A stretch of DNA of 64,000 nt from Streptomyces sp. NBC_01260 (GTDB taxonomy: Bacteria; Actinomycetota; Actinomycetes; Streptomycetales; Streptomycetaceae). The notes under the pieces were generated by a model. It did not search any database, was not told the origin of the DNA, and saw nothing but the letters and a program-made list of their open reading frames with translations. A program made the position numbers and the translations under genes. Positions 699-12,312 of this stretch are shown piece by piece. Every line of letters begins with the position of its first letter. Positions within the stretch are counted from its first letter, which is position 1. The stretch lies in the NCBI RefSeq assembly GCF_036226405.1, contig NZ_CP108464.1, positions 3,534,001 through 3,598,000 of the forward strand, written 5' to 3'.

Positions 699-866
699 TC
701 AGCAGGCGGAGCAGGTGCTCGACGAGGACGACGAGGTCCCGATCGAACCGCTGGACGCGCCCATCTCCGGCAGCGCCACGCCCTGGGCGACCTCAAGGGT
801 CTCCAGCTCGTCCGCGTCGAAGCCGTCGAACGCCGCGTCGTCGCCGTTGATGTCGTTGATGCTCAT
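699..866 (-). CDS. Thiopeptide-like RiPP precursor peptide, copy 2
   Basis: This 55-residue peptide begins MSINDINGDD, has an acidic leader (FDGFDADELETLEV), then ALPEMGA, and ends in SSGSIGTSSSSSSTCSAC. The acidic leader and ALPE(M/N)GAS junction are typical of thiazolylpeptide-type precursors; the 18-residue tail holds 10 Ser, 2 Thr and 2 Cys, residues used for azole or dehydroamino-acid formation. AAGGAA lies about 8 bases before the ATG. Residues 9-55 are identical to the upstream copy, 49 bases away. Leader and core are inferred from family resemblance; no cyclodehydratase or dehydratase gene is in the window, so the mature product is unknown. Confidence 0.85.
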   Translation of the reverse strand: MSINDINGDDAAFDGFDADELETLEVAQGVALPEMGASSGSIGTSSSSSSTCSAC

Positions 867-915
867 GTCTGAATTCCTTTCGAGGACCTGATGGTCCGGA
901 TTCGGGTGGGGTGGG

Positions 916-1083
916 TCAGCAGGCGGAGCAGGTGCTGGACGAGGAGGACGAGGTGCCGATCGAGCCGCTGGAGGCACCCATCTCCGGCAGCGCCACGCCC
1001 TGGGCGACCTCAAGGGTCTCCAGCTCGTCCGCGTCGAAGCCGTCGAACGCCGCGTCGTCGTTCTTGATGTCGTTGGCAGCCAT
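916..1083 (-). CDS. Thiopeptide-like RiPP precursor peptide, copy 1
   Basis: A 55-residue peptide beginning MAANDIKNDD and identical to the neighbouring copy from residue 9 to the end. AAGGGAA precedes the ATG by about 7 bases. In the DNA of the two genes the leader segment is essentially identical while the stretch encoding the last 20 residues differs at about six positions, all silent. That pattern suggests the core sequence is held by selection. It lies 179 bases downstream of the SagB-type dehydrogenase gene on the same strand and is probably co-transcribed with it. Core boundaries after ALPEMGA are inferred. Confidence 0.85.
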   Translation of the reverse strand: MAANDIKNDDAAFDGFDADELETLEVAQGVALPEMGASSGSIGTSSSSSSTCSAC

Positions 1084-1107
1084 GGTGCATTCCCTTCGAT
1101 TGGGTTC

Positions 1108-1135
1108 CGGAATTTCTCGGATTCTCTGAATTCCG
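1108..1135 (-). other. Inverted repeat between sagB and peptide genes
   Basis: CGGAATT (1108-1114) and AATTCCG (1129-1135) can pair around a 14-base loop, 25 bases upstream of the first precursor start. It could be an RNA processing or attenuation site that raises peptide over enzyme levels; only the repeat itself is seen. Confidence 0.35.
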
Positions 1136-1262
1136 CCCCGGAACAACAGTCCTGCGAATATGAAGCCATTCGGTTTCTTCTGCTTTCCCGTCCGGCTTCG
1201 ATATCCATATTGCTCGGCCCGCCACCCCCGCGCCAGACTTTCCGGCGCCGCGCTGACATTTA

Positions 1263-2801
1263 TCACGGGGCGAATGACGCTTCGCCCGGCAGCGACCATT
1301 CGGGGCTGTTCACCATGTGCCATTCCGGACCGGGGTCGCCGGCGATCGCGGGGTCCTGACCAGGCGTACCGAGCAGGAAATCCCCCACCGAGGACTCCTC
1401 CAGGTAGTCCAGGCCCAGGACCCGGGCGGACATGTCGGCGTCCCCGTTGCCCAGGCCGCAGGGGGCCAGGCCCATCGCCGTGGCCACCAGATACATCGTC
1501 TGGTAGAGCACACCGGTGTGCCGCAGCGTCGTCGCGTACGCCATGGCCCGGTACTTCCACGCCATCCGCTGGAAGCGCGAGGTCACCGTGATGAGCACAT
1601 CGGGGCGCACGTCGAAGCCGACCGAGCGGGACGCCACGTTCAGCAGCGACCTGCGGTCCACCTCGGCGTCGTTGACGAGCACCAGGCGGTGTCCGTAGGA
1701 GTCGTAGTGGTAGATGCCCGGCGCCAGCCCCGCGCAGCGCAGCACGGTGACGTACAGCTCCAGTTCGTAGAGCGAGCCGCCACTCGGGTAGGGGCGGGAG
1801 ATCACCTCGTCGGCGCCGGGGCTGTCCGCGCCCGGGGTGTGGTGCACCCGGACACGCTGCACCCGGTACAGGAACTCGCCCAGCTCCTTGGCGGTCAACT
1901 CCCGCTCCCCGTAAGTACGGTGCGAACGCCTCGTCTCGATCGCGGCGGTCAGTGAGGGGTCACGGGCGTCGATGTCCCGGCGCAGCGGCCGGTACAGATC
2001 GACCGCCTCCCCGGCCGGGACGGGCTTCACCGCCGGCCGCGGCTCGATCTCCCCCTGGTAGGGGTAGACCGCGCCGAAGATCCCGTCGTAGCGGCCCGAG
2101 CGCACCCGCGAGTGGAACAGCAGGTCGTGGAAGTCCCACTGCCGCAGCTTCGGTTCGGTGTCGGAGGCGAACGTCCCGTCGGGTCCGGCGGCCTCGGCGA
2201 AGCCGGCCCCGATCAGATGCGCGAGCACGTCGAGGCTCTCCTGCGGCCCGAGACCGGTGCCCTCACCGGCCCGGCCGGCCGCCACCGGCTGCCCCAGGGC
2301 GGCCGTGAGCTCGCGCGCCCCCCGGTCGGCGAGCACCGCGCGGAACTTCACGAGCGGCGACTCCAGCACCAGCACGCCGTCGCGCGAGCGGCAGAACGCG
2401 AACCGGGACAGCCGCACCGCGGCGTCGGTGTCCACCGGGGCCGGTTCGTACCCGGCGTCGCGGGCCGTCTGCTCCAGCCGCACCAACTCCCGCCGCAGCG
2501 GCGCCTCGTCGCCGCTGAGCACGCTGTGCGCGAGGAGCTGCGAGGCCCGCTCCACGAGAGCGGCCGCCCGGACCCGCTCGGCCGGGGTGAACCCCTCGTA
2601 CAGCTCGTCGTCGGGCAGCGGCTCGCCGCCGAGCCGGTCGAGCACGGTGCGCAGCGCCCCGCGTACCGGCCGCAGCACCAAGGAGCTGACGGGGCCGTGC
2701 AGGGTCACGGTGTCCGTGGCGCCGTCCAGGGCGACACGGACGTCGGCCCGCAGGACGCGGGCATGCGTCCTGGCGGGTCTCGTCGTGGATACGGGGATCA
2801 T
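1263..2801 (-). CDS. SagB-type FMN-dependent peptide dehydrogenase
   Basis: A 512-residue protein with an N-terminal helical region (about 1-270) and a C-terminal nitroreductase-like FMN domain (about 285-500). Visible landmarks are RRSHRTYGE at the start of the FMN domain, YPSGGSLYELELYV, and the YQTMYLVATAMGLAPCGLG segment typical of actinobacterial SagB/ThcOx proteins. In thiopeptides and related azole RiPPs such enzymes oxidise azolines to azoles. GGAGG sits 6 bases before the ATG. It leads the transcript that ends with the twin precursor genes, which makes those peptides the likely substrate. No YcaO partner is in the window, so either the partner is in trans or the enzyme has another oxidation role. 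Confidence 0.85.
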   Translation of the reverse strand: MIPVSTTRPARTHARVLRADVRVALDGATDTVTLHGPVSSLVLRPVRGALRTVLDRLGGEPLPDDELYEGFTPAERVRAAALVERASQLLAHSVLSGDEAPLRRELVRLEQTARDAGYEPAPVDTDAAVRLSRFAFCRSRDGVLVLESPLVKFRAVLADRGARELTAALGQPVAAGRAGEGTGLGPQESLDVLAHLIGAGFAEAAGPDGTFASDTEPKLRQWDFHDLLFHSRVRSGRYDGIFGAVYPYQGEIEPRPAVKPVPAGEAVDLYRPLRRDIDARDPSLTAAIETRRSHRTYGERELTAKELGEFLYRVQRVRVHHTPGADSPGADEVISRPYPSGGSLYELELYVTVLRCAGLAPGIYHYDSYGHRLVLVNDAEVDRRSLLNVASRSVGFDVRPDVLITVTSRFQRMAWKYRAMAYATTLRHTGVLYQTMYLVATAMGLAPCGLGNGDADMSARVLGLDYLEESSVGDFLLGTPGQDPAIAGDPGPEWHMVNSPEWSLPGEASFAP

Positions 2802-3058
2802 CCGGGGCCTCCGGTCTACGGAACTTCGCTGCGTACGTCGAAATCCACTCTGCGGCCCGATACACCCTCAACTCCCTTCTACGGCACACCACATGACACT
2901 CACCATTTCCATGGATGACCGAGGTCACGGTTCGCGTGACACATGACAGGGGCGTCCGGCTTTCGCTCGGACATCCGGCACCCGCGGCGCATCCTCGAAA
3001 CACGCATTCGACTCACCGCACCGCATCCCGTGCACTCACCACAGGTAGGGAAAATCTC
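2802..3058. promoter_or_regulatory. Divergent control region between sagB and oxidase operon
   Basis: This 257-base gap separates the leftward sagB-peptide transcript from the rightward oxidase-ligase-aldolase-synthase operon. It contains an inverted repeat, GTCACG (2924-2929) and CGTGAC (2935-2940) with a 5-base spacer, a possible operator. No clear -10/-35 pair was identified. Confidence 0.45.
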
Positions 3059-4543
3059 GTGCTCACTCGTCGTCATGCAATACGTCTCGGTCTGACCACC
3101 GGTGCCGTCGGCGCGGTCGGCGCTGCGGGCGGAACGTTCCAGCTGCTCGCCGGCGGCCAGTCGGCCCAGGCCGCGGAGGCCACCGGCCGCACCGCGGCGG
3201 CGGGCGCCGTCGAGCAGTTCACGGTGCCGCTGACGGTGCCGCCGGTACTGGCCCCGTACCGCAGGACCAAGGCGGCCGACTACTACCGCGTGACGATGCG
3301 CAGGGCGAGCACGGAGATCCTGCCGGGCACCCGCACCGACGTCCTCACGTACAACGGCTCCTTCCCCGGACCCACCATCCGCGCCCGCTCGGGCCGCACC
3401 GCGGTCGTCCAGCAGGTGAACGCCCTGGACATGCCCACCTCGGTGCACCTGCACGGCGGCAACAACCCGGTGGCCAACGACGGCGGCATGATGGACACCA
3501 TCGCTCCGGGGCGCTCCCGGACGTACGTGTACGAGAACAGGCAGCCCGGCGCCACCCTGTGGACGCACGACCACGCGCACCACATGGAGTCCGAGCACGT
3601 CTACCGGGGTCTGTCCGGGGCGTATCTGCTCGGCGACAGCAACGAGGACGCGCTCGGACTGCCCTCGGGCGCCTACGACATCCCGCTCGTCCTGCGCGAC
3701 GCGGCGTTCGACGAGAACGCCGCCATGGTCTACACGATGGACGACGCGGACAACCGGACGACGATCCTGGTCAACGGCCGGCCCTGGCCGTATCTGAAGG
3801 TCGAGGGCCGCAAGTACCGCTTCCGCCTGGTCAACTCGTGCAACCTGCGCATCTTCATCCTGGCGCTGACCGACGGCACGACCGACCAGCACCCGGTGCA
3901 GCAGATCGGCTCGGACGGCGGGCTGCTCGCGGCGCCCGCCGAGACGCCGGTCATGGTGCTGTCCCCCGGCGAGCGCATCGACTTCGTCGTCGACTTCGCC
4001 CAGTACGCGCCCGGCACCAAGCTCACCCTGTCCAACATGCTCGGCCCCGGCCCGACCGAACTGGTCGGCCAGGTCATGCGGTTCGACGTGGGCGAGAAGA
4101 CCCCCGACAGCAGCCGGGTGCCCGCCGCCCTCGCCACGCTGCCGGCCCTGCCGAAGCCGACCGTCGAGCGCACCTTCGAACTGAACATGGACGAGCCGGG
4201 CACCGGCAGCCACCAGGCGTACATCAACGGCAGGACCTTCGACGCGAACCGGATCGACACCACCATCCGGTGGGGCGCCACGGAGGTATGGACGGTGGTG
4301 AACAAGAGCACCACCATTCCGCACAACTTCCATACGCACCTGGTGCAGTTCCGCATTCTCGAACGCGACGGGGCTGCGCCCTATCCGGCGGAGGCCGGCC
4401 TCAAGGACACCGTTCTGCTCTTCCCCGGACAGGTCGCGAAACTCCAGCTGACCTTCAGTTCGCACCGGGGCGTCTATCCCTATCACTGCCACATGATCGA
4501 CCACAGCGCCATGGGAATGATGGGCCAGATGAAGATCGTCTGA
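3059..4543 (+). CDS. Exported multicopper oxidase, phenoxazinone-synthase/laccase type
   Basis: Three-domain multicopper oxidase of 494 residues from the GTG at 3059, which has GGG 8 bases upstream. The N-terminus (LTRRHAIRLG, hydrophobic stretch, AQA) looks like a Tat signal, so the enzyme is probably exported folded. All copper motifs are present: HLHGG near 130, WTHDHAHH near 168, HNFHTH near 422 and HCHMIDHSAMGMM near the C-terminus, including the Met axial ligand. Family members oxidise phenols and o-aminophenols; the phenoxazinone synthase of S. antibioticus belongs here. With genes for 3-amino-4-hydroxybenzoate downstream, an o-aminophenol substrate is the likely inference. The frame extends to 2915 but lacks the signal-peptide layout there. 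Confidence 0.85.
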   Translation: MLTRRHAIRLGLTTGAVGAVGAAGGTFQLLAGGQSAQAAEATGRTAAAGAVEQFTVPLTVPPVLAPYRRTKAADYYRVTMRRASTEILPGTRTDVLTYNGSFPGPTIRARSGRTAVVQQVNALDMPTSVHLHGGNNPVANDGGMMDTIAPGRSRTYVYENRQPGATLWTHDHAHHMESEHVYRGLSGAYLLGDSNEDALGLPSGAYDIPLVLRDAAFDENAAMVYTMDDADNRTTILVNGRPWPYLKVEGRKYRFRLVNSCNLRIFILALTDGTTDQHPVQQIGSDGGLLAAPAETPVMVLSPGERIDFVVDFAQYAPGTKLTLSNMLGPGPTELVGQVMRFDVGEKTPDSSRVPAALATLPALPKPTVERTFELNMDEPGTGSHQAYINGRTFDANRIDTTIRWGATEVWTVVNKSTTIPHNFHTHLVQFRILERDGAAPYPAEAGLKDTVLLFPGQVAKLQLTFSSHRGVYPYHCHMIDHSAMGMMGQMKIV

Positions 4544-4617
4544 ACGGGCCTTTTCCCCTCCCCTCTTTCCGCTTTCGCCTTTCTCTTCTCCCACACCCTT
4601 GTGCAGAAAGGAGGATC

Positions 4618-6300
4618 ATGACCACCCGAACCGCTCCGCCCTCATACGCGCGCCGGGTACTCGCCGCGCTGGCACGCGATCCCGCCCGTGCGGTCCTGCA
4701 CCGGCGCGACTCGACGGTCGCAGCGGGTGAGCTGCATGAATCCGTGCTCGGGACCACCGCCCTGCTGAAGTCCCGGGGCATCGGCCCCGGGGCCACCGTC
4801 GCCACCCTGACCGGTCCCAACCACCCGCTGATGCTCAGCGCCCGGTACGCGGTGAATCTGCTGGGGGGCACCTCCGTCTACGTACGCTCGATGAATCCGC
4901 GGACCGACACCCAGACGTTCTCGCTGGCCACCCAGACCCAGCTGCTGCGCGAACTCGGCGTGCGGCTGCTGCTGGTGGACGACCGGGACGAGGACAGCGC
5001 AGCCCGCGGGCGGTGGCTGGCCCGGCGGCTGCCCGGCCTCACCGTGCTGCCGATCGCCCGCCGGGCGGATGGGCGGGCGCGGCTGCCGGATCTGCCGGAG
5101 CCGCGTCCGGACGATGTCGCGGTCGTCGACTTCACCAGCGGCTCCACCGGCCGGCCGAAGATGGTCGCCCAGCGCTACCGCACCCGCGAACAGCTCGTGG
5201 CGCGGCTCACGGACGGCCTCGATCCCCGGGGACCGGCGACGCTGCTCTCGGTCACCCCGATCAGCCACACGACGGCCCCGATGGCCGACGCGGTGCTGTC
5301 GGGCGGCGGAACGGTGGTGCTGCACGACGAGTTCGACGCCGACGCCACCCTGCACGCCTTCGACCGGCTGCGGGTGACCGACGTCTACCTCGCCGTGCCG
5401 CATCTGTACCGGCTGCTCGACCACCCGCTGGCGACGTCCTGCGACCTGTCGTCCCTGCGGCGCATCACCTACAGCGGCACCCCCGCCGCGCCCGAGCGGG
5501 TGCGGCAGGCGGTCCGGCTCTTCGGTGACGTGCTGATCCAGGTGTACGGCACGACGGAGGCCGGCGGCATCTCCAGCCTCAACCCGCTGGACCACCGCGA
5601 ACCGGAGCTCCTCGGCTCGGTCGGCCGGCCCTTCCCCTGGGTACGCGTCGAGATCCGGGCACCCGGCAGCACGACGGCGCTGGGGCGCGGGCAGAGCGGC
5701 GAGATCTGGGTCAGCTCGGCCACGGTCTCGGCGGGCTACCTGGACGACCCGGAGCTGACCGCCAGGACGCTCAGGGACGGCTGGCTGCGCACCGGGGACC
5801 TCGGGCACTGGGACACCTACGGCTATCTGCGCCTGGACGGCCGGGTCGGCGACGTCATCAAGCACGGCGGGCTCAAGCTGGACCCGGCCGCGATCGAGGA
5901 CGCGCTGACGGCGCACCCCCAGGTGCGGCAGGCCGCCGTCTTCGGGGTCCGCGACGCCGACCTCGTCGAGCAGGTGCACGCCGCGGTCGAACTCCACTCG
6001 GGCGCCGGGCACACCTCCTGCGACCTGCGTGACTACGTGGCGGCGGCGCTCACCCCGGAACACACCCCGGTCAGCGTCTCCGTCTGGCCCGAACTGCCGC
6101 TCACGCCCGCCGGGAAACCGGACCGCGCCCATCTGCGCAGCGTGACCGCACCGGTGCGGGCCCAACCCCCAGGACCCGCGCGCGCCGCACCCCTCCCGTC
6201 ACCCGGCGAGGACGCGGAAGCGCGCGGTACGGGCCCGCCGGGGCCCGGCCACGCCGCCTGTCGGCGTACCGGTACGCGCAACAGAAAGGGCGCTCCATGA
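4618..6300 (+). CDS. ANL-family acyl/aryl-adenylate ligase
   Basis: 560 residues; AAGGAGG lies immediately upstream of ATG 4618. The ATP motif FTSGSTGRPK is near 171-180, YGTTEAGG near 310, TGDLGHWDTYGYLRLDGR and the hinge region near 400, and the catalytic lysine is in TPAGKPDR near 500. Such enzymes activate carboxylic acids as acyl-AMP and pass them to CoA, a carrier protein or an amine. Its position directly before two 3-amino-4-hydroxybenzoate genes, overlapping the next gene by ATGA, suggests that acid as substrate. No carrier-protein gene is seen in the window, so the acceptor is unknown. The last 55 residues are a Pro/Ala-rich tail without a recognised domain. Confidence 0.8.
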   Translation: MTTRTAPPSYARRVLAALARDPARAVLHRRDSTVAAGELHESVLGTTALLKSRGIGPGATVATLTGPNHPLMLSARYAVNLLGGTSVYVRSMNPRTDTQTFSLATQTQLLRELGVRLLLVDDRDEDSAARGRWLARRLPGLTVLPIARRADGRARLPDLPEPRPDDVAVVDFTSGSTGRPKMVAQRYRTREQLVARLTDGLDPRGPATLLSVTPISHTTAPMADAVLSGGGTVVLHDEFDADATLHAFDRLRVTDVYLAVPHLYRLLDHPLATSCDLSSLRRITYSGTPAAPERVRQAVRLFGDVLIQVYGTTEAGGISSLNPLDHREPELLGSVGRPFPWVRVEIRAPGSTTALGRGQSGEIWVSSATVSAGYLDDPELTARTLRDGWLRTGDLGHWDTYGYLRLDGRVGDVIKHGGLKLDPAAIEDALTAHPQVRQAAVFGVRDADLVEQVHAAVELHSGAGHTSCDLRDYVAAALTPEHTPVSVSVWPELPLTPAGKPDRAHLRSVTAPVRAQPPGPARAAPLPSPGEDAEARGTGPPGPGHAACRRTGTRNRKGAP

Positions 6301-7250
6301 CCGCATACGGCCACTTCGCCAGGTCACTGCGACTGCGGCGGCTCTACCGCCACAGCACGGCCGGCCTGATGATCACCCCTCTCGACCACTCGATCAGTGA
6401 CGGACCCGTGGTGCCCAAGGGCACGACGCTCGACCAGCTCGCCGGCCGGCTGGCCGCCGGCGGCAGCGACGCGGTCGTCGTGCACAAGGGCAGCGTGCGC
6501 CACATCAGCCCGGAGCGGTTCGCCGCGATGTCGCTGATCATCCATCTCAACGCGTCCACCAACCAGGCACTCGACCCGAACGCCAAGTACGTGGTGACCG
6601 AGGTCGAGGAGGCGCTGCGGCTCGGCGCGGACGCGGTCAGCGTCCACGTCAACCTCGGCTCCGACGACGAACGGCAGCAGATCGGCGACCTCGGGCGGAT
6701 CGCCGACGCCTGTGACCGCTGGAACCTGCCGCTGCTCGCCATGGTGTACCCGCGCGGCCCGCGCATCACCAACCCGCGTGACCCGGAGATGGTGGCGCAC
6801 GCCGTCACCGTGGCGTCCGATCTGGGCGCGGACCTGGTCAAGACCGTCTTCCTCGGCTCCACCGCGGAGATGCTCGACCTGACCGCGGCCTGCCCGGTGC
6901 CGGTCCTGGTCGCGGGCGGCCCCGCGCTGCCCGCCGAGGAGGACGTGCTGCGGTACGTCCGCGACGCGCTGGCCGGCGGCGCGGGCGGGGTGGCGATGGG
7001 CCGCAACATCTTCCAGGCGCAGAACCCGCAGCGGCTCGCGGCGAAGGTCGCCCGGCTGGTCCACCACTTCCCCGAACAGCACTTCGGCCCGGACCCGTTC
7101 CCGGCCGCCGACCGGACGGACGAGCGGCTGACGCCCGACCACGCCCCGGATCACCTCGGAGCCCCGGCGCCCTCCGACGAGAACACCCACCACCTTTCCG
7201 ATCTGACAGGAGGTCCGCATCATGACGGACGCAAAACTGTGCTGGCTTGA
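6297..7250 (+). CDS. DhnA/GriI-type aldolase for aminohydroxybenzoate synthesis
   Basis: 317-residue class I aldolase of the 2-amino-3,7-dideoxy-heptulosonate synthase family. ITPLDHSISDGP (Asp30-His31) and LVKTVFLGSTAEM (Lys182, the expected Schiff-base lysine) are visible, as are VAGGPA and the phosphate-binding GGAGGVAMGRN. In Streptomyces, GriI joins aspartate semialdehyde and dihydroxyacetone phosphate into a C7N precursor of 3-amino-4-hydroxybenzoate; the following GriH-like gene makes that role far more likely than archaeal-type shikimate synthesis. A 45-residue hydrophilic C-terminal tail, His- and Asp-rich, exceeds the usual length of about 270 and overlaps the next gene by 29 bases. 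Confidence 0.88.
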   Translation: MTAYGHFARSLRLRRLYRHSTAGLMITPLDHSISDGPVVPKGTTLDQLAGRLAAGGSDAVVVHKGSVRHISPERFAAMSLIIHLNASTNQALDPNAKYVVTEVEEALRLGADAVSVHVNLGSDDERQQIGDLGRIADACDRWNLPLLAMVYPRGPRITNPRDPEMVAHAVTVASDLGADLVKTVFLGSTAEMLDLTAACPVPVLVAGGPALPAEEDVLRYVRDALAGGAGGVAMGRNIFQAQNPQRLAAKVARLVHHFPEQHFGPDPFPAADRTDERLTPDHAPDHLGAPAPSDENTHHLSDLTGGPHHDGRKTVLA

Positions 7251-8337
7251 CGTTCGCGGAACCGGCAACGCCACCGCCGCCGTACTCGAGGAAGCGATGC
7301 ACCAGCGGATCGACGGCATCGTCGCCGCCGACCCGGCCGTCTTCAACGGACTGCCGCCCACCGTGCGCAAGATCCTGCTCTTCCCCGACGGCCTCGACGC
7401 CGTCCCCGCCGACCTCGGCGCCACCGACGTGGTCATCGTCCCCGGCGGCCGGGACGCCCGGTCGGAGCTGATGGCCGCGCACCCCGGCGTGGAGTTCGGC
7501 CGGTACGTCGAGATCGTGGACGCCGACACCCTGGAGGACGCCTGCCTGGCGGCCCGCCTAGAGCCGTGGAGCATCCTCGACTTCCGCGACCCGACCAAGA
7601 TCCCGCTGGAGATCGTGATCGCGGCGGCGACCGGCTCGCCCGGCTCGATCATCACGACCGCGTCCAACACCGAGGAGGCCGAGATCATCTACGGCGTGCT
7701 CGAACTCGGCTCGGACGGGGTGCTGATGCGGGCCGACACCGTCGGCAACGCGACCGCCCTGCGTACCGCGGCCACCTCCCGCAGCGGTGAGATCCCGCTG
7801 GTGGAGCTGACCGTCGTCAAGGCCACCCACATCGGCATGGGCGAGCGGGCCTGCGTCGACACGACGACTCACTTCCGCAAGGACGAGGGCATCCTCGTCG
7901 GCAGCCACTCCAAGGGCATGGTCCTGTGCGTCAGCGAGACCCACCCGCTGCCGTACATGCCGACCCGCCCCTTCCGGGTCAACGCCGGCGCCCTGCACTC
8001 GTACACCGTCTCGGAGAACGGCCGCACCAACTACCTGAGTGAACTGCACTCCGGGAGCACGGTCCTGGCCGTCGACGTCAAGGGCCGGACCCGTCCGGTC
8101 AGCGTCGGCCGGGTGAAGATAGAGACCCGGCCGCTGATCTCCATCGACGCGGTGGCCCCGGGCGGCCAGCCGGTCAACCTGATCCTCCAGGACGACTGGC
8201 ACGTGCGGGTGCTGGGTCCGGGCGCCGCGGTCCTCAACTCCACCGAGCTGAAGCCGGGCGACACGATCCTCGGCCACCTGCCGACGGCGGACCGCCATGT
8301 CGGCTACCCGATCGACGAGTTCTGCCTGGAGAAGTAG
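7222..8337 (+). CDS. GriH-type 3-amino-4-hydroxybenzoate synthase (DHQ synthase II family)
   Basis: 371 residues, family length. It starts at ATG 7222 after ACAGGAGG, inside the 3' end of the aldolase gene, which implies translational coupling. WSILDFRDPTKIPLEIVIAA and the SNTEEAEIIYGVLELGSDGV segment are typical of 3-dehydroquinate synthase II proteins. Paired with a GriI-like aldolase, this family cyclises the C7N chain to 3-amino-4-hydroxybenzoate, the starter used for grixazone, manumycin-type and benzoxazole metabolites. It is the last gene of the rightward operon and is followed by a strong terminator hairpin. Confidence 0.88.
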   Translation: MTDAKLCWLDVRGTGNATAAVLEEAMHQRIDGIVAADPAVFNGLPPTVRKILLFPDGLDAVPADLGATDVVIVPGGRDARSELMAAHPGVEFGRYVEIVDADTLEDACLAARLEPWSILDFRDPTKIPLEIVIAAATGSPGSIITTASNTEEAEIIYGVLELGSDGVLMRADTVGNATALRTAATSRSGEIPLVELTVVKATHIGMGERACVDTTTHFRKDEGILVGSHSKGMVLCVSETHPLPYMPTRPFRVNAGALHSYTVSENGRTNYLSELHSGSTVLAVDVKGRTRPVSVGRVKIETRPLISIDAVAPGGQPVNLILQDDWHVRVLGPGAAVLNSTELKPGDTILGHLPTADRHVGYPIDEFCLEK

Positions 8338-8393: not shown

Positions 8394-8418
8394 GCCCCGG
8401 CACCTCTTGTGCCGGGGC
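8394..8418. terminator. Bidirectional terminator
   Basis: Perfect 10-bp stem, GCCCCGGCAC / GTGCCGGGGC, with loop CTCTT, between the convergent GriH-like gene and the response-regulator gene. Confidence 0.8.
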
Positions 8419-8453: not shown

Positions 8454-9059
8454 TCACAGCAGCCCGTGCTCGATCGCGATACGGGCCGCGTCGAACCGGT
8501 TGCGGCCACCCAGCTTCTTGATCGCGGCCGAGGTCAGATTGCGTACGGTCCCGCCCGCCAGGAACAGCTCCCCCGCGATCTCCTTGACGGTCGCCCCGCC
8601 GGCGGTGAGCCGCAGCACGTCCACCTCGCGCACACTCAGCGAGGCATCACCCACGGCCACTGTCCGCAGCAGCGAGGGATCGACCGTCAGACAGCCCCCC
8701 GCCACCCCCATCAGCGTCGTGATCAGCTGCGGCAGCCGCGCGTTCTTCGGTACGACGCCCAGCGCCCCGGCCGCGACCGCCCGGTCCACCACCGACTGCG
8801 TCGCCGCGCCCACCATCAGCACGACACCGCACCTGAGGTGCTGGGTGCGCACATCGGCGGCGGCCCGCAGGGCCTTGCCGCCCATGGTGGACTCACCGAG
8901 CAACAGCACGGTCGGCCGGTGCCGTTCGACGGCGGGAAGCACCGACTCGTAGGACGTGGCGAGCCCCACGACCTCCAGTCCGTCGGCACTGTTCAGGGTC
9001 TCGGCGAAGGCTTCCAGGACGAGTTGGTGGTCGCCGGCGACGACGATTCGTACGGACAT
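8454..9059 (-). CDS. NarL-like response regulator with degenerate receiver
   Basis: 201 residues: a receiver-like domain (1-125) and a LuxR-type helix-turn-helix (about 140-200, LSVREVDVLRL to KEIAGELFLAGGTVRNLTS). In ordinary NarL/FixJ receivers an acidic DDH cluster and a phosphoacceptor Asp in VLMD are expected. Here they read AGDHQ and VLLLGES, so the phosphoacceptor appears absent, which points to phosphorylation-independent control or ligand binding. The start is ATG 9059. It lies at the right side of the aminohydroxybenzoate/peptide locus, 46 bases downstream of the truncated SDR on the same strand, with no histidine kinase nearby. A pathway regulator role is inferred. Confidence 0.8.
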   Translation of the reverse strand: MSVRIVVAGDHQLVLEAFAETLNSADGLEVVGLATSYESVLPAVERHRPTVLLLGESTMGGKALRAAADVRTQHLRCGVVLMVGAATQSVVDRAVAAGALGVVPKNARLPQLITTLMGVAGGCLTVDPSLLRTVAVGDASLSVREVDVLRLTAGGATVKEIAGELFLAGGTVRNLTSAAIKKLGGRNRFDAARIAIEHGLL

Positions 9060-9105
9060 GTGATCAACCCCCGTATGGTTGACGGATCCGCTGAGCGGCG
9101 AATCC

Positions 9106-9612
9106 TCAGCAGGATTGCGGTCTGCGGTGCAGCAACTGGTCCACGAGCCCGTGGGCCGCCTCCTCATGGCCTTCGGTGCAGTCGGCCATGTCGATCTCGA
9201 TGTGCCGTGCGCCGGGCGGCAGCGCGGCGGCGACCGTCGCCGACATGGTGCGGTAGGCCGCCGTCCGCTCCCCGGTGCAGGGGGCCGCGGGGATCACCAC
9301 CACGCAGACGGCGACGGAACCCAGGTCCGCGGCGATCTGGGCGGGCAGCGTGCGGAAGGTGTCGGCCCGTTCGATGTCGGCCCGGTAGGGCAGGGCAACC
9401 ATCCCGATCTCGGCCAACTCCTTGCAGAGGAAGGCCGCGTTGGTGGCCGCGTCGTCGCCACGTCCCCGGTGCTCCGCCCCGACCACCGCGACCTTCGCGC
9501 CGGCGGCACAGAGCCGGATGGTGATGATCCGGCCAATTCCGGTGGTGGCGTCGACGACGAGAACGACACGGCCTTCGAGGGCTTCAGGCGCGTAACTCTC
9601 TGCATGGGACAC
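9106..9612 (-). CDS. Truncated short-chain dehydrogenase-like Rossmann protein
   Basis: 168 residues from GTG 9612, chosen because AGGAG lies 5 bases upstream. GRVVLVVDATTGIGR resembles the SDR cofactor-binding loop (TGxxxGIG), but the protein ends before the usual YxxxK catalytic pair and is about 80 residues shorter than a normal SDR. It may bind NAD(P) without catalysis, or be a remnant. It is read leftward together with the pseudo-receiver gene and shares an upstream region, holding a palindrome, with the TrmB/LuxR regulator. Function not known. Confidence 0.65.
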   Translation of the reverse strand: MSHAESYAPEALEGRVVLVVDATTGIGRIITIRLCAAGAKVAVVGAEHRGRGDDAATNAAFLCKELAEIGMVALPYRADIERADTFRTLPAQIAADLGSVAVCVVVIPAAPCTGERTAAYRTMSATVAAALPPGARHIEIDMADCTEGHEEAAHGLVDQLLHRRPQSC

Positions 9613-9700
9613 CGCGGCTCCTGAGCAGTTAATGTGTTGAACGTGTGAACTGGTGAGCCAGGGGAGTTGCGTGGTGCGCGACGCGACCTGCGTCGACTGC

Positions 9701-9722
9701 CACGTGCCTGACTCGGCACGTG
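9701..9722. promoter_or_regulatory. Palindromic operator candidate in divergent promoter
   Basis: CACGTGCC-TGACTC-GGCACGTG, perfect 8-bp arms with a 6-bp spacer, 35 bases before the TrmB/LuxR regulator start and 89 bases before the SDR-like start. Position and symmetry suggest a binding site for one of the two flanking regulators. Confidence 0.55.
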
Positions 9723-9756
9723 CGCACGAGTCGGCCGCGATCCGGGGGAGACACAC

Positions 9757-10746
9757 GTGGACGAGGTTTCGTCGCTCGATCAGGAGACGCTCGCGGTCTA
9801 CCGCGCGATCCTTTTCCACAAGGAACACGATCCGCTCAAACTCGCCCAGCTGCTCGACATGGATACCGGTGGAGTGGAGGAGGCCCTGGGACGGCTCTCG
9901 CAGCTGTCCCTGCTCGCACCGTCCCGTGACTCACCCGGAACCCTGCGCGCGGTCAACCCGTCACTCGGCCTGAAGGTCCTGCTCCAGCGGGAACAGGACG
10001 AACTGGCCGCGCGCCAGCAGCGCATCGAACAGAACCGCGCGGCGCTGGCCGCCCTCGCCGCCGAGTACACGGCCTCCGGCCGCTCCTCCTCCGACCGGAC
10101 CGAACAGCTCGACAACGTCGACGACATACGGATCAGGCTGGAGGCCCTCGCCGAGTCCTGCCAGCGCGAGTCCCTGGCCTTCCACCCCGTGGGCGGGCTG
10201 ACCGAGGAGTCGATCGAGGCGGGCCGGCCGCTGAACGAGCGGGCACTCGCCCGCGGGGTCCGGTTCCGTTCGATCTACCTCGACAGCGTCGCCAACGACC
10301 GGGTGACCAAGGCGCACGCCCAGTGGATGGCGGAACGGGACAGCGAGATCCGTACCTCACCCACCCTGCCGATGCGGCTGCTCATCGTCGACACGACCGC
10401 CGCCGTCGTCGCCGGCCTGCCCGGTCAGGCGGGCCCCTCCGCGCTGCTGTTCAGCAGTCAGCCGGTGGTGCTCGCCATGCGGGCCCTGTTCGAGGCGTAC
10501 TGGGAACACGCGGCCCCCCTGCACGGCCCCGGACATCCGGGCGAGGCCCTGGCCTGCGGGCTCACTCCGCAGGAGCGCAAGCTCCTCCAGCTCCTGTCCA
10601 GCGGTCTCACCGACGACGCGGTGGCCCGTGCGCTGGGCATCGGGGTCCGCACCGAGCGGCGCATCATGGCCGAGCTGATGGAGCGGCTCGGCGCGTCCAG
10701 CCGGTTCGAGGCCGGGGTGCAGGCGACGCGTCGGCAGTGGATCTGA
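9757..10746 (+). CDS. TrmB/LuxR-family transcriptional regulator
   Basis: 329 residues. An N-terminal winged-helix TrmB-like domain (about 1-70, LAVYRAILFHKEHDPLKLAQLLDMD) is followed by a coiled-coil stretch rich in Glu/Gln/Arg (about 75-105), a middle region, and a C-terminal LuxR-type helix-turn-helix (about 268-325, LTPQERKLLQLLSSGLTDDAVARALGIG). This architecture is common among regulators inside actinobacterial RiPP and other secondary-metabolite clusters. The start at GTG 9757 follows GGGGGAGA. It is divergent from the SDR-like and pseudo-receiver genes across a palindrome, and is the likely pathway regulator of the locus. Confidence 0.82.
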   Translation: MDEVSSLDQETLAVYRAILFHKEHDPLKLAQLLDMDTGGVEEALGRLSQLSLLAPSRDSPGTLRAVNPSLGLKVLLQREQDELAARQQRIEQNRAALAALAAEYTASGRSSSDRTEQLDNVDDIRIRLEALAESCQRESLAFHPVGGLTEESIEAGRPLNERALARGVRFRSIYLDSVANDRVTKAHAQWMAERDSEIRTSPTLPMRLLIVDTTAAVVAGLPGQAGPSALLFSSQPVVLAMRALFEAYWEHAAPLHGPGHPGEALACGLTPQERKLLQLLSSGLTDDAVARALGIGVRTERRIMAELMERLGASSRFEAGVQATRRQWI

Positions 10747-10777: not shown

Positions 10778-11056
10778 TCACGAGGAGGCCGGCGCCACCG
10801 GCCACACGAAGTCGCCCGGCATCCGCTGGCCGCCCGATCCGTCCCCCGGCGCGACCGGCCAGACGAAGTCGTCCGGCGTACGCGGGTTGCCACCCGGAGC
10901 CGTCGGCCACACGAAGTCGAGGGTGCCGTGCTGCGTCGCCGCCACGCCCACCCCTGCGGCCTGAGCGGGAGCCGCCCAGACGAGGGCGCCCAGCACTCCG
11001 GCGGCCAGGGTGGTGACGACGGCGGTACAGCGGGTGGCACGGGTGGCTCGGGACAT
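10778..11056 (-). CDS. Secreted small protein with three DFVWP repeats
   Basis: 92 residues from ATG 11056 (GGAG 7 bases upstream). A Sec-type signal peptide ends at APAQA (cleavage after residue 33), leaving a mature chain of about 59 residues. It carries three copies of DFVWP(T/V)AP, at about 47, 63 and 82, spaced 16 and 19 residues apart by Gly/Pro-rich linkers. I do not recognise a family. Repeated short motifs behind an export signal fit a structural surface peptide, a binding-repeat protein or a multicopy propeptide. It lies convergent with and 31 bases from the TrmB/LuxR gene, at the edge of the biosynthetic locus, but a link to it is only positional. Confidence 0.75.
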   Translation of the reverse strand: MSRATRATRCTAVVTTLAAGVLGALVWAAPAQAAGVGVAATQHGTLDFVWPTAPGGNPRTPDDFVWPVAPGDGSGGQRMPGDFVWPVAPASS

Positions 11057-11334
11057 GGCTGGTCTCCATTCCAGGCGCGACGATGACCGGATCGGCAGTG
11101 CGTTCGGAGCCAGTGGTGCTCGGTAGCTCCCCCGGACCGGTTCGCGATTTCCGCGTTCCGGCCGCTGAGATGAGATAACCACCGGCACCGCCCGGCTGTC
11201 CGCCTCCTGCGAGGCCAGGAAGCTGCCTGGCAGGGAGTTGCCCAGCCGCGGACCACGCTCGTGACCGCCTCCCTCCAGCAACACCCCTTAGGCTGTTCCC
11301 CTTTGCGCGCCGCTGAGCCGAGGGAGACACCACC

Positions 11335-12312
11335 GTGGAACGCCGCCCGGACGAGAAGTACCCGCCGATCGAGCCGTACGAGCAGGGGATGCTCGATGTC
11401 GGCGAAGGCAACCTCGTGTACTGGGAGGCGTGCGGCAACCCGGCCGGCAAACCCGCCGTCGTCGTGCACGGCGGACCGGGCTCGGGGTGCGCGGAGCGGC
11501 CCCGGCAGTACTTCGACCCGGAACGCTACCGCGTGATCCTCTTCGACCAGCGGGGCTGCGGCCGCTCCACCCCGCACGCGAGCGACCCGGCCGCCGACAT
11601 GCGGTTCAACACGACGGACCGGCTGATCGCCGACATGGAGCGGCTGCGCGTCCGGCTGGGCATCGACAAGTGGCTGCTCTACGGGGGTTCCTGGGGCTCG
11701 ACGCTGATCCTCGCGTACGCCGAGCAGTACCCGGAGCGGGTCAGCGAGATCGTGATCCCGGCCGTGACCACGACCCGCCGCTCCGAGATCGACTGGCTGT
11801 ACCGGGTCGCGGGGCGGATCTTCCCCGAGGCATGGGACCGGTTCCGGGCCGGGGTCCCGGAGGCCGCGAGCGACGCGACCCCCGACGTGCTCGCCGCGTA
11901 CGCCCGGCGGACGGAGAGCCCCGACCCGGAGGTGCGGGCGCGGGCGACGGCCGACTGGTGCGCCTGGGAGGACGCGGTGCTCTCCCAGGAGGCGTACACC
12001 GGACCGCCGCCGTACAGCGGCCGGCCCGCACGCGCGCAGCAGGCACTGGTGCGGATCTGCGCGCACTACTTCTCCCACGGCGCCTGGCTGGAGGAGGGGC
12101 AGCTGATCCGGGACGCCGGGCGGCTGGCGGGAATCCCGGGCGTGCTGGTGCACGGGCGGTTCGACCTGGGCGGCCCGCTGGGCACCGCGTGGGAGCTGGC
12201 GAAGGCGTGGCCGGACGCGGAACTGACCGTGATCGACGACGCGGGCCATCTCGGCGGGGCGGCGACGAGCCGGGCGGTGCTGGCGGCGCTGGACCGGTTC
12301 GCGGACCGATAG
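11335..12312 (+). CDS. pip: Proline iminopeptidase
   Basis: 325-residue alpha/beta hydrolase. HGGPGSGC (oxyanion hole region), FDQRGCGRSTPH and the nucleophile elbow GGSWGS (Ser near 121) are the hallmarks of prolyl aminopeptidases, which release N-terminal proline from peptides in the cytoplasm. The catalytic Asp and His lie in HGRFDLGGP and DAGHLGG near the C-terminus. It begins at GTG 11335 after GAGGGAGA. It is a single gene, with a 275-base gap on its right in which I see no gene. Confidence 0.9.
   Translation: MERRPDEKYPPIEPYEQGMLDVGEGNLVYWEACGNPAGKPAVVVHGGPGSGCAERPRQYFDPERYRVILFDQRGCGRSTPHASDPAADMRFNTTDRLIADMERLRVRLGIDKWLLYGGSWGSTLILAYAEQYPERVSEIVIPAVTTTRRSEIDWLYRVAGRIFPEAWDRFRAGVPEAASDATPDVLAAYARRTESPDPEVRARATADWCAWEDAVLSQEAYTGPPPYSGRPARAQQALVRICAHYFSHGAWLEEGQLIRDAGRLAGIPGVLVHGRFDLGGPLGTAWELAKAWPDAELTVIDDAGHLGGAATSRAVLAALDRFADR

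Follow-up and report, generated by a model that had tools for sequence, protein, structure and literature searches.

A thiopeptide-type gene cluster of Streptomyces that carries its own 3-amino-4-hydroxybenzoate pathway

The left end of a 64,000-nucleotide stretch of the genome of Streptomyces sp. NBC_01260 (contig NZ_CP108464.1, positions 3,534,001 to 3,598,000; hereafter the window, C1:3534001-3598000 in our numbering, with window base 1 at C1:3534001) holds the right portion of a thiopeptide-type cluster that spans about 25 kb (C1:3519382-3544746) and is cut by the left window edge. This cluster combines a thiopeptide gene set with a pathway to 3-amino-4-hydroxybenzoate (3,4-AHBA). We infer that the two sets likely belong to a single pathway, whose product would be a thiopeptide-type peptide with a 3,4-AHBA-derived unit, with the attachment, its site and the product all deduced from sequence; the product is probably an antibiotic-like compound of an undescribed kind. 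The original prediction for this DNA had described a compact locus joining a peptide half to a complete aminohydroxybenzoate pathway. The link was borne out by the occurrence of both halves in the same 14 of 392 genomes, by a second subtype, by other actinomycete families and by co-divergence, but the locus proved neither compact nor complete, as most of the peptide-modifying enzymes are encoded outside the window.

Within the window, two minus-strand genes (699-866 and 916-1083) encode precursor peptides of 55 residues that both pass the thiopeptide models PF19409 (Thiopep_pre; 43.6 bits against a cut-off of 23.5) and NCBIfam NF033400 (54 against 30). The leader of the first ends in LEVAQGVALPEMGA and is followed by the core SSGSIGTSSSSSSTCSAC; the second has the same core and differs at four leader residues. 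A SagB/ThcOx-type azoline oxidase is encoded on the same strand (1263-2801; TIGR03605, 167 against 78.4 bits; PF22767 ThcOx, 98 against 27.7), with CyaGox/ThcOx structures 8pz5 and 5lq4 as its nearest solved relatives (233 bits). This protein combines the family-model match with the Lys-Tyr pair, which is presumably catalytic, as known from McbC, and its WKY motif was found in 10 of 10 clusters of the window's kind (type I). The plus strand carries genes for a multicopper oxidase (2915-4543; PF07732, PF07731 and PF00394, Pfam cut-offs passed), an adenosine monophosphate (AMP) ligase of the ANL superfamily (4618-6300; PF00501 and PF13193, Pfam cut-offs passed), a GriI-like aldolase for the first step to 3,4-AHBA (6297-7250; NF005556, 298.8 against 241 bits) and a GriH-like 3,4-AHBA synthase (7222-8337; NF002625, 543 against 375 bits). 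The adjacent aldolase and synthase that mark a 3,4-AHBA pathway are thus present at the NF005556 and NF002625 cut-offs; the top-scoring models were NF041223 (BagB/FevI, 367.6 bits) for the aldolase and NF041224 (BagC/FevH, 587.9 bits) for the synthase, each below its own cut-off (500 and 750). Scores above family-model cut-offs therefore confirmed the twin precursors, SagB, ligase and GriI/GriH pair named in the original prediction.

The rest of the biosynthetic set was found in the 18 kb read to the left of the window. On the minus strand, and in order away from the window edge, this region encodes a PbtD/TbtD-like protein (C1:3532550-3533719; NF045556, E 9e-29), a LanB glutamylation-type dehydratase (C1:3529944-3532550), a protein of 645 residues with no family assigned (open reading frame ORF645, C1:3528007-3529941; poor AlphaFold model with a mean predicted local distance difference test score, pLDDT, of 44.7), a YcaO cyclodehydratase with a fused leader-binding domain (C1:3526083-3528014; TIGR03604, 227.7 against 219.25 bits; TIGR03882, 58.9 against 36.9; PF02624, 235 against 25.7), a nitroreductase-fold protein of 520 residues (C1:3524521-3526080) and an elimination protein (C1:3523538-3524482). 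The dehydratase and the elimination protein together make up a split LanB (PF04738, 44.7 against 28 bits; PF14028, 134 against 24.4; TIGR03891, 102.6 against 48.45). At locus L003, the orthologue of the PbtD/TbtD-like protein matches PbtD in the PDB (E 1e-11), and that of the dehydratase matches 6ec7 (E 1e-15), which we take to be TbtB. The 520-residue protein matched no family model; its assignment comes from a confident predicted model (pLDDT 83.7) that matches nitroreductases, McbC, BmdC and ThcOx, and many of its orthologues carry the name nitroreductase family. Genes for a YceI-like protein and then an ATP-binding cassette (ABC) exporter follow on the plus strand (C1:3520853-3523427), and a flavin adenine dinucleotide (FAD) monooxygenase gene on the minus strand (C1:3519382-3520728) closes the cluster. 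The nitroreductase-fold protein was present in every cluster tabulated, in type I alongside the second, intact SagB.

In a sample of 392 Streptomyces genomes, SagB relatives of at least 67% identity were found in 14 genomes, with the next best match at 52%, and GriH relatives of at least 85% identity were found in 14 genomes, with the next best at 74%. The two sets of genomes are identical. Both genes lie in one block in 13 of the 14; in the draft genome G166 they are on different contigs. The original prediction had held that halves never found together in relatives would be two separate systems that happen to be neighbors, and here they were found together. S. laculatispora, S. africanus, S. 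massasporeus and S. caelestis are among the species with named loci. Synteny of the block was kept in the type I loci fetched, and the far left end of the cluster, up to the FAD monooxygenase, was kept in all seven further type I genomes read, with the YceI gene in four of them. Precursors matching PF19409 were detected in 39 of the 392 genomes; in 21 of these the precursor ends in Cys, and 18 of the 21 have griH in the cluster.

Eight loci with SagB relatives at or below 52% were also read (L027-L034; 37-52% identity). No GriH was seen near any of them, while a distant YcaO and a regulator like that at 8454-9059 of the window were each present in six of the eight. These loci are probably other azole peptide clusters.

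A second subtype came to light from reading around each of the 37 GriH places with 66-74% identity, with 10-20 kb fetched for each non-thiopeptide one. Nine (G066, G115 contig 2, G330, G135, G043, G391, G204, G155 and G080) hold a type II cluster with YcaO, nitroreductase-fold and elimination proteins, exporter, ligase, griI, griH and FAD monooxygenase. These clusters have no SagB, and a second FAD monooxygenase stands in its place. Six of the nine were read far enough to show the LanB and PbtD-like genes, which in G115, G135 and G080 lie beyond the fetched stretch. At the other 28 GriH places the thiopeptide set was not seen within the 10-20 kb fetched; at one of these, L064, SagB is matched in part (31%).

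Homologues of the first FAD monooxygenase were found near griI and griH at 13 of these 28 loci without the thiopeptide set (42-53% identity), and the enzyme therefore belongs with the 3,4-AHBA chemistry. Its nearest solved structures are tropone 2-monooxygenase and decarboxylative vanillate/4-hydroxybenzoate hydroxylases, and among the matches listed its protein-database relatives have only generic names. Monooxygenases that act at position 2 of 3,4-AHBA are known from platensimycin and cremeomycin, and by analogy our guess is that this enzyme could have a similar role.

Clusters were also sought across 394 genomes of the class using the 520-residue nitroreductase-fold protein, rather than GriH, as the query. 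Six genomes were recovered, the window's own and five others (G418, G528, G475, G654 and G701). Ligase, griI and griH were present at all four readable loci; the contig of G701 ends too early. G418 and G528 have SagB and the window's core (type I), and G475 and G654 are type II. Thus, the same kind of cluster is present in other actinomycete families beyond Streptomyces.

The divergence of five thiopeptide genes (PbtD-like, LanB, YcaO, nitroreductase-fold and elimination) was compared with that of four AHBA genes (ligase, griI, griH and FAD monooxygenase). Protein distance matrices of the two sets correlated at 0.86-0.96 across 18 clusters, with G135 left out on account of its truncated contig. 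On a reduced set of 13 clusters, the module averages of the two sets agreed as well (Mantel r 0.936, p 0.0001). These distances indicate that the thiopeptide and AHBA gene sets diverged together, as one unit of evolution.

The core peptide was examined in the same loci. The core SSGSIGTSSSSSSTCSAC was present in 40 of 40 copies (both copies at 20 type I loci, identified through the leader sequence; L007/L015 and L010/L016 are each one genome), and the precursors of G418 and G528 have it as well. Among 34 copies counted by exact core match there were 19 nucleotide versions that differ by synonymous changes, and the leaders vary. A type I core that stays fixed while leaders drift is as would be expected of one molecule under selection. 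Type II cores follow a pattern like CCSSSSSSCC. A C-terminal Cys was found in 56 of 56 AHBA-linked precursor copies (52 without two genomes that were fetched twice) and in none of 33 copies of PF19409 precursors without a griH link. One database precursor with the standard core comes from a Nocardioides contig on which, judged by the contig's length, a homologue of the 520-residue protein is encoded as well.

A separate PF19409 family without a griH link was encountered in 18 Streptomyces genomes (L109-L126). Its precursors are often paired and have C-terminal follower sequences, and most contain TSMRDTxALPEGGAS...SCSC..SSSC. At L049 (G388:C1:257000-276900), a precursor ending in ASTNCFCYICCSCSSN, which resembles a thiomuracin-type core, has a YcaO and a distant relative of SagB as neighbors.

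The ligase has its catalytic Lys in a GKPD motif, and adenylation of 3,4-AHBA or of its hydroxylated form is proposed as its activity. Its nearest solved structures are 6sq8 and 6h1b (256 bits, nearly full length), followed by 8pyy, 8pyx and 8ppp, which we take to be a second amide bond synthetase (PMC10804368). Structures 6sq8 and 6h1b are titled only "Fatty acid CoA ligase"; since 6h1b carries the Lys-to-Ala substitution of a mutant of the amide bond synthetase McbA (PMC6282839), we take both to be that enzyme. According to the part of the McbA paper covered, McbA couples aryl acids with amines in a carrier-free manner, and its Asp201 is thought to activate the amine (PMC6282839).

All four copper motifs are present in the copper oxidase, which also has an apparent twin-arginine signal read from its sequence (LTRRHAIRLGL); its nearest solved structure is a bilirubin oxidase (262 bits). 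Its start is probably the GTG at 3059 rather than 2915, because loci L009, L017 and L024 have an in-frame stop just upstream of the equivalent position. The phenoxazinone-synthase-type oxidase of the original prediction holds at the level of the multicopper superfamily, but identity with phenoxazinone synthase PhsA was rejected, with 219.7 bits against the 950 of the o-aminophenol oxidase equivalog model.

A model for the pathway was assembled, its chemistry inferred from the protein families. The YcaO with its fused leader-binding domain, perhaps together with ORF645, would make azolines from Cys and Ser of the core, which SagB, and perhaps also the nitroreductase-fold protein, would oxidize. 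The glutamylation and elimination proteins of the split LanB would supply dehydroalanines, and the PbtD/TbtD-like enzyme would then close a pyridine-type macrocycle with expulsion of the leader. In the other branch, GriI and GriH would make 3,4-AHBA, probably hydroxylated by the FAD monooxygenase, and the ligase would adenylate the aryl acid and then join it to the peptide. After export by the ABC transporter, the copper oxidase, itself exported by the twin-arginine route, would oxidize the aminophenol late and outside the cell. Because the core has no Lys and the N-terminus would be removed by a pyridine-forming enzyme, the candidate attachment sites are Ser/Thr hydroxyls, Cys thiols and the C-terminal acid.

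A number of observations weigh against a single pathway to an aryl-bearing thiopeptide. The core offers no Lys to acylate, and neither a carrier protein nor an acyltransferase for transfer of the aryl acid onto the peptide was recognized. Where McbA (Asp201) and the second amide bond synthetase have Asp, the ligase has His, as do coenzyme A (CoA) and aryl-AMP ligases, and thus lacks the mark of an amide bond synthetase; the same His is present in 16 of the other 18 clusters, the remaining two being unmatched by the motif. The PbtD/TbtD-like protein scores 100.8 bits, far under the equivalog cut-off of 325, and neither the WKY stretch nor the Lys-Tyr pair of SagB was seen in the nitroreductase-fold protein. 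The copper oxidase was found in nine of 10 type I and two of nine type II clusters tabulated, and not in the stretch fetched around G418; being patchy, it is therefore not essential to this kind of cluster. Among 67 related database precursors, 40 have exactly the core SSGSIGTSSSSSSTCSAC and the rest are variants or fragments, including one from S. caelestis, with 22 core versions in total. At the draft type I locus L004, two leader halves are fused (11734-11893) and followed by a stop without a core, perhaps through assembly collapse of the repeat; L008, also type I, stops inside the precursor leader; and no precursor was found by its leader at the type II locus L039. Visibly broken clusters in G170, G003 and G363 keep a Cys-ending precursor without griH. 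The distance correlations leave genome-wide ancestry uncontrolled, with no housekeeping comparison, and the nearest neighbor of distant clusters by AHBA genes is sometimes of the other subtype, so that some exchange of these genes between subtypes is possible.

Two loci with incomplete gene sets were read in detail. L051 (G170:C1:3522500-3542400, 8751-10690) is a decayed copy of the type I cluster that occupies the same place in the chromosome, flanked by the window's own neighbors (aldo-keto reductase, 95%; major facilitator superfamily protein, 92%). Of the FAD monooxygenase, PbtD-like and sagB genes only the ends remain; the DUF7010 gene is nearly complete, and the single precursor left has an altered core (P0244, GISSSSSS). 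L053 (G003:C15) has a type II-like precursor, a full-length ligase match and a PbtD-like fragment, with no griI, griH or YcaO in the stretch read; it is either a partly lost cluster or one in which the ligase was retained for other use.

Other explanations were weighed against the same data. Divergent transcription and hairpins at the unit ends would suit two unrelated systems that abut by chance in this genome, but the recurrence of both halves in the same 14 of 392 genomes in the same order, as well as in the second subtype and other actinomycete families, makes such a coincidence exceedingly improbable. A stand-alone system of SagB and precursors was ruled out by the thiopeptide machinery left of the window. 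A co-regulated island could instead yield two products, a plain thiopeptide and, acting beside it, an unattached small aromatic (phenoxazinone, pigment or chelator). Consistent with this explanation, the thiopeptide set was not seen within the stretch fetched at 28 of the 37 GriH places with 66-74% identity, free aminophenol is a possible substrate of the exported copper oxidase, and 3,4-AHBA pathways alone yield ahbamycins, including a phenoxazinone, from a cluster with ahbH, ahbI and ahbL2, as described in the part of the source covered (PMC10179220). Set against it, AHBA genes were present in each intact cluster found without GriH as the query (the 14 SagB-led genomes and four of four class-level loci), the AHBA and thiopeptide genes co-diverge, and the C-terminal Cys marks AHBA-linked precursors and is absent from unlinked ones. 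Two separate products are thus unlikely.

A special case of the single pathway concerns the C-terminus, where the last Cys would become a thiazole-carboxylate to which the ligase couples the amine of 3,4-AHBA, and the resulting o-hydroxyanilide may close to a benzoxazole. The C-terminal Cys in all 56 AHBA-linked copies and none of the 33 unlinked ones fits such a cap, as do the ligase's nearest solved relatives, which couple aryl acids and amines carrier-free in the part of the McbA paper covered (PMC6282839). However, the window ligase has His in place of McbA Asp201, no ring-closing enzyme was identified, and the peptide acid would be a large substrate; the cap is put forward tentatively, as a minority possibility.

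Several known systems resemble parts of the cluster. Thiopeptides of the GE2270/thiomuracin kind are made with the enzymes PbtD, TbtD and TbtB, and their clusters share with that described here a PF19409-type precursor, a YcaO, a LanB dehydratase with an elimination protein, a SagB-type oxidase and, through a match below the cut-off, a PbtD/TbtD-like protein. The present cluster differs in adding the full 3,4-AHBA pathway, an AMP ligase, an FAD monooxygenase and often a copper oxidase, and its core is Ser-rich and ends in Cys. In nosiheptide, nocathiacin and thiostrepton, an external aromatic acid made by the cluster is activated by adenylation and added to the peptide. These acids are indolic or quinaldic, and nosiheptide uses a carrier and transferase, whereas the acid predicted here derives from 3,4-AHBA, and neither carrier nor transferase was recognized. 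Grixazone, ahbamycin and bagremycin/ferroverdin share the GriI/GriH pair, the adenylating ligase and aminophenol oxidation (PMC10179220); however, their products are small molecules, and no ribosomal peptide is described for them in the portions of the sources covered. McbA, the nearest solved relative of the ligase, differs from it in the Asp201 position. No report of a thiopeptide with 3,4-AHBA was found in the open-access literature covered, a scope that takes in few subscription papers. Aromatic-acid thiopeptides and 3,4-AHBA clusters are each already known; what appears to be new, judged by gene content, is the thiopeptide set and the 3,4-AHBA pathway in one cluster.

The cluster is accompanied by further conserved genes. 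At the left window edge, a plus-strand gene for a small DUF7010 protein (1-565; PF22765, 31.5 against 27 bits; ORF L013:17960-18565), whose frame begins about 41 bases left of the edge, adjoins the cluster in type I and several type II loci. To the right of griH lie genes for a LuxR/NarL-type response regulator (8454-9059, minus strand; PF00196 and PF00072; 74-89% identity across type I, with homologues in most type II clusters), a short-chain-dehydrogenase-like protein (9106-9648, minus strand, the conserved part of ORF 9106-9828; PF00106, 26.3 bits, slightly below the cut-off of 26.6) and a LuxR-type helix-turn-helix regulator (9757-10746, plus strand; PF00196; 82-87% identity in type I). 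The short-chain-dehydrogenase-like gene is found in Streptomyces type I clusters and is absent from G418, G528 and type II. A small, apparently exported protein with DFVWPxAP repeats (10778-11140, minus strand) had no match in a Pfam search and is 39-53% conserved beside the cluster in many type I genomes.

Strong terminators had been predicted to bound the locus. A long-stem hairpin at 610-673 (z -3.8 against shuffles for the stretch 566-690) and another at 8394-8418 (z -4.6) do exceed shuffled sequence, while a smaller one at 583-600 does not (z 0.4). None of the three has a T-run, and a terminator scan returned three sites against 2.6 expected, none of them at the hairpins. The hairpins at 610-673 and 8394-8418 may be transcript ends, but they are no boundary of the cluster, because the biosynthetic genes extend some 15 kb past the left edge of the window and, on the other side, conserved regulators follow after 8337.

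The cluster also invites comparison with actinomycin, in which the peptides are nonribosomal and the phenoxazinone synthase is PhsA. Both systems place a copper oxidase beside an aminophenol acid and a peptide, but the actinomycin peptides are not ribosomal and the oxidase here falls far under the PhsA model cut-off. A ribosomal counterpart with a thiopeptide-type macrocycle, in which the copper oxidase acts on the aminohydroxybenzoate unit and so joins two peptides, or a peptide and a free aminophenol, through a phenoxazinone or quinone-imine link outside the cell, is considered a long shot. If true, it would mean a class of ribosomally synthesized and post-translationally modified peptides (RiPPs) whose defining feature is a 3,4-AHBA pathway of its own. 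It would have two subtypes, type I with SagB and the core SSGSIGTSSSSSSTCSAC and type II with the second FAD monooxygenase and CC...CC cores.

This kind of cluster is present in about 6% of the Streptomyces genomes sampled (14 type I and nine type II of 392). A single pathway of the kind favored here would make the joining of a ribosomal peptide and an aromatic building block from one cluster a natural product family, and the cluster would allow the attachment of an aryl acid to a thiopeptide in the absence of a recognized carrier protein to be tested directly.

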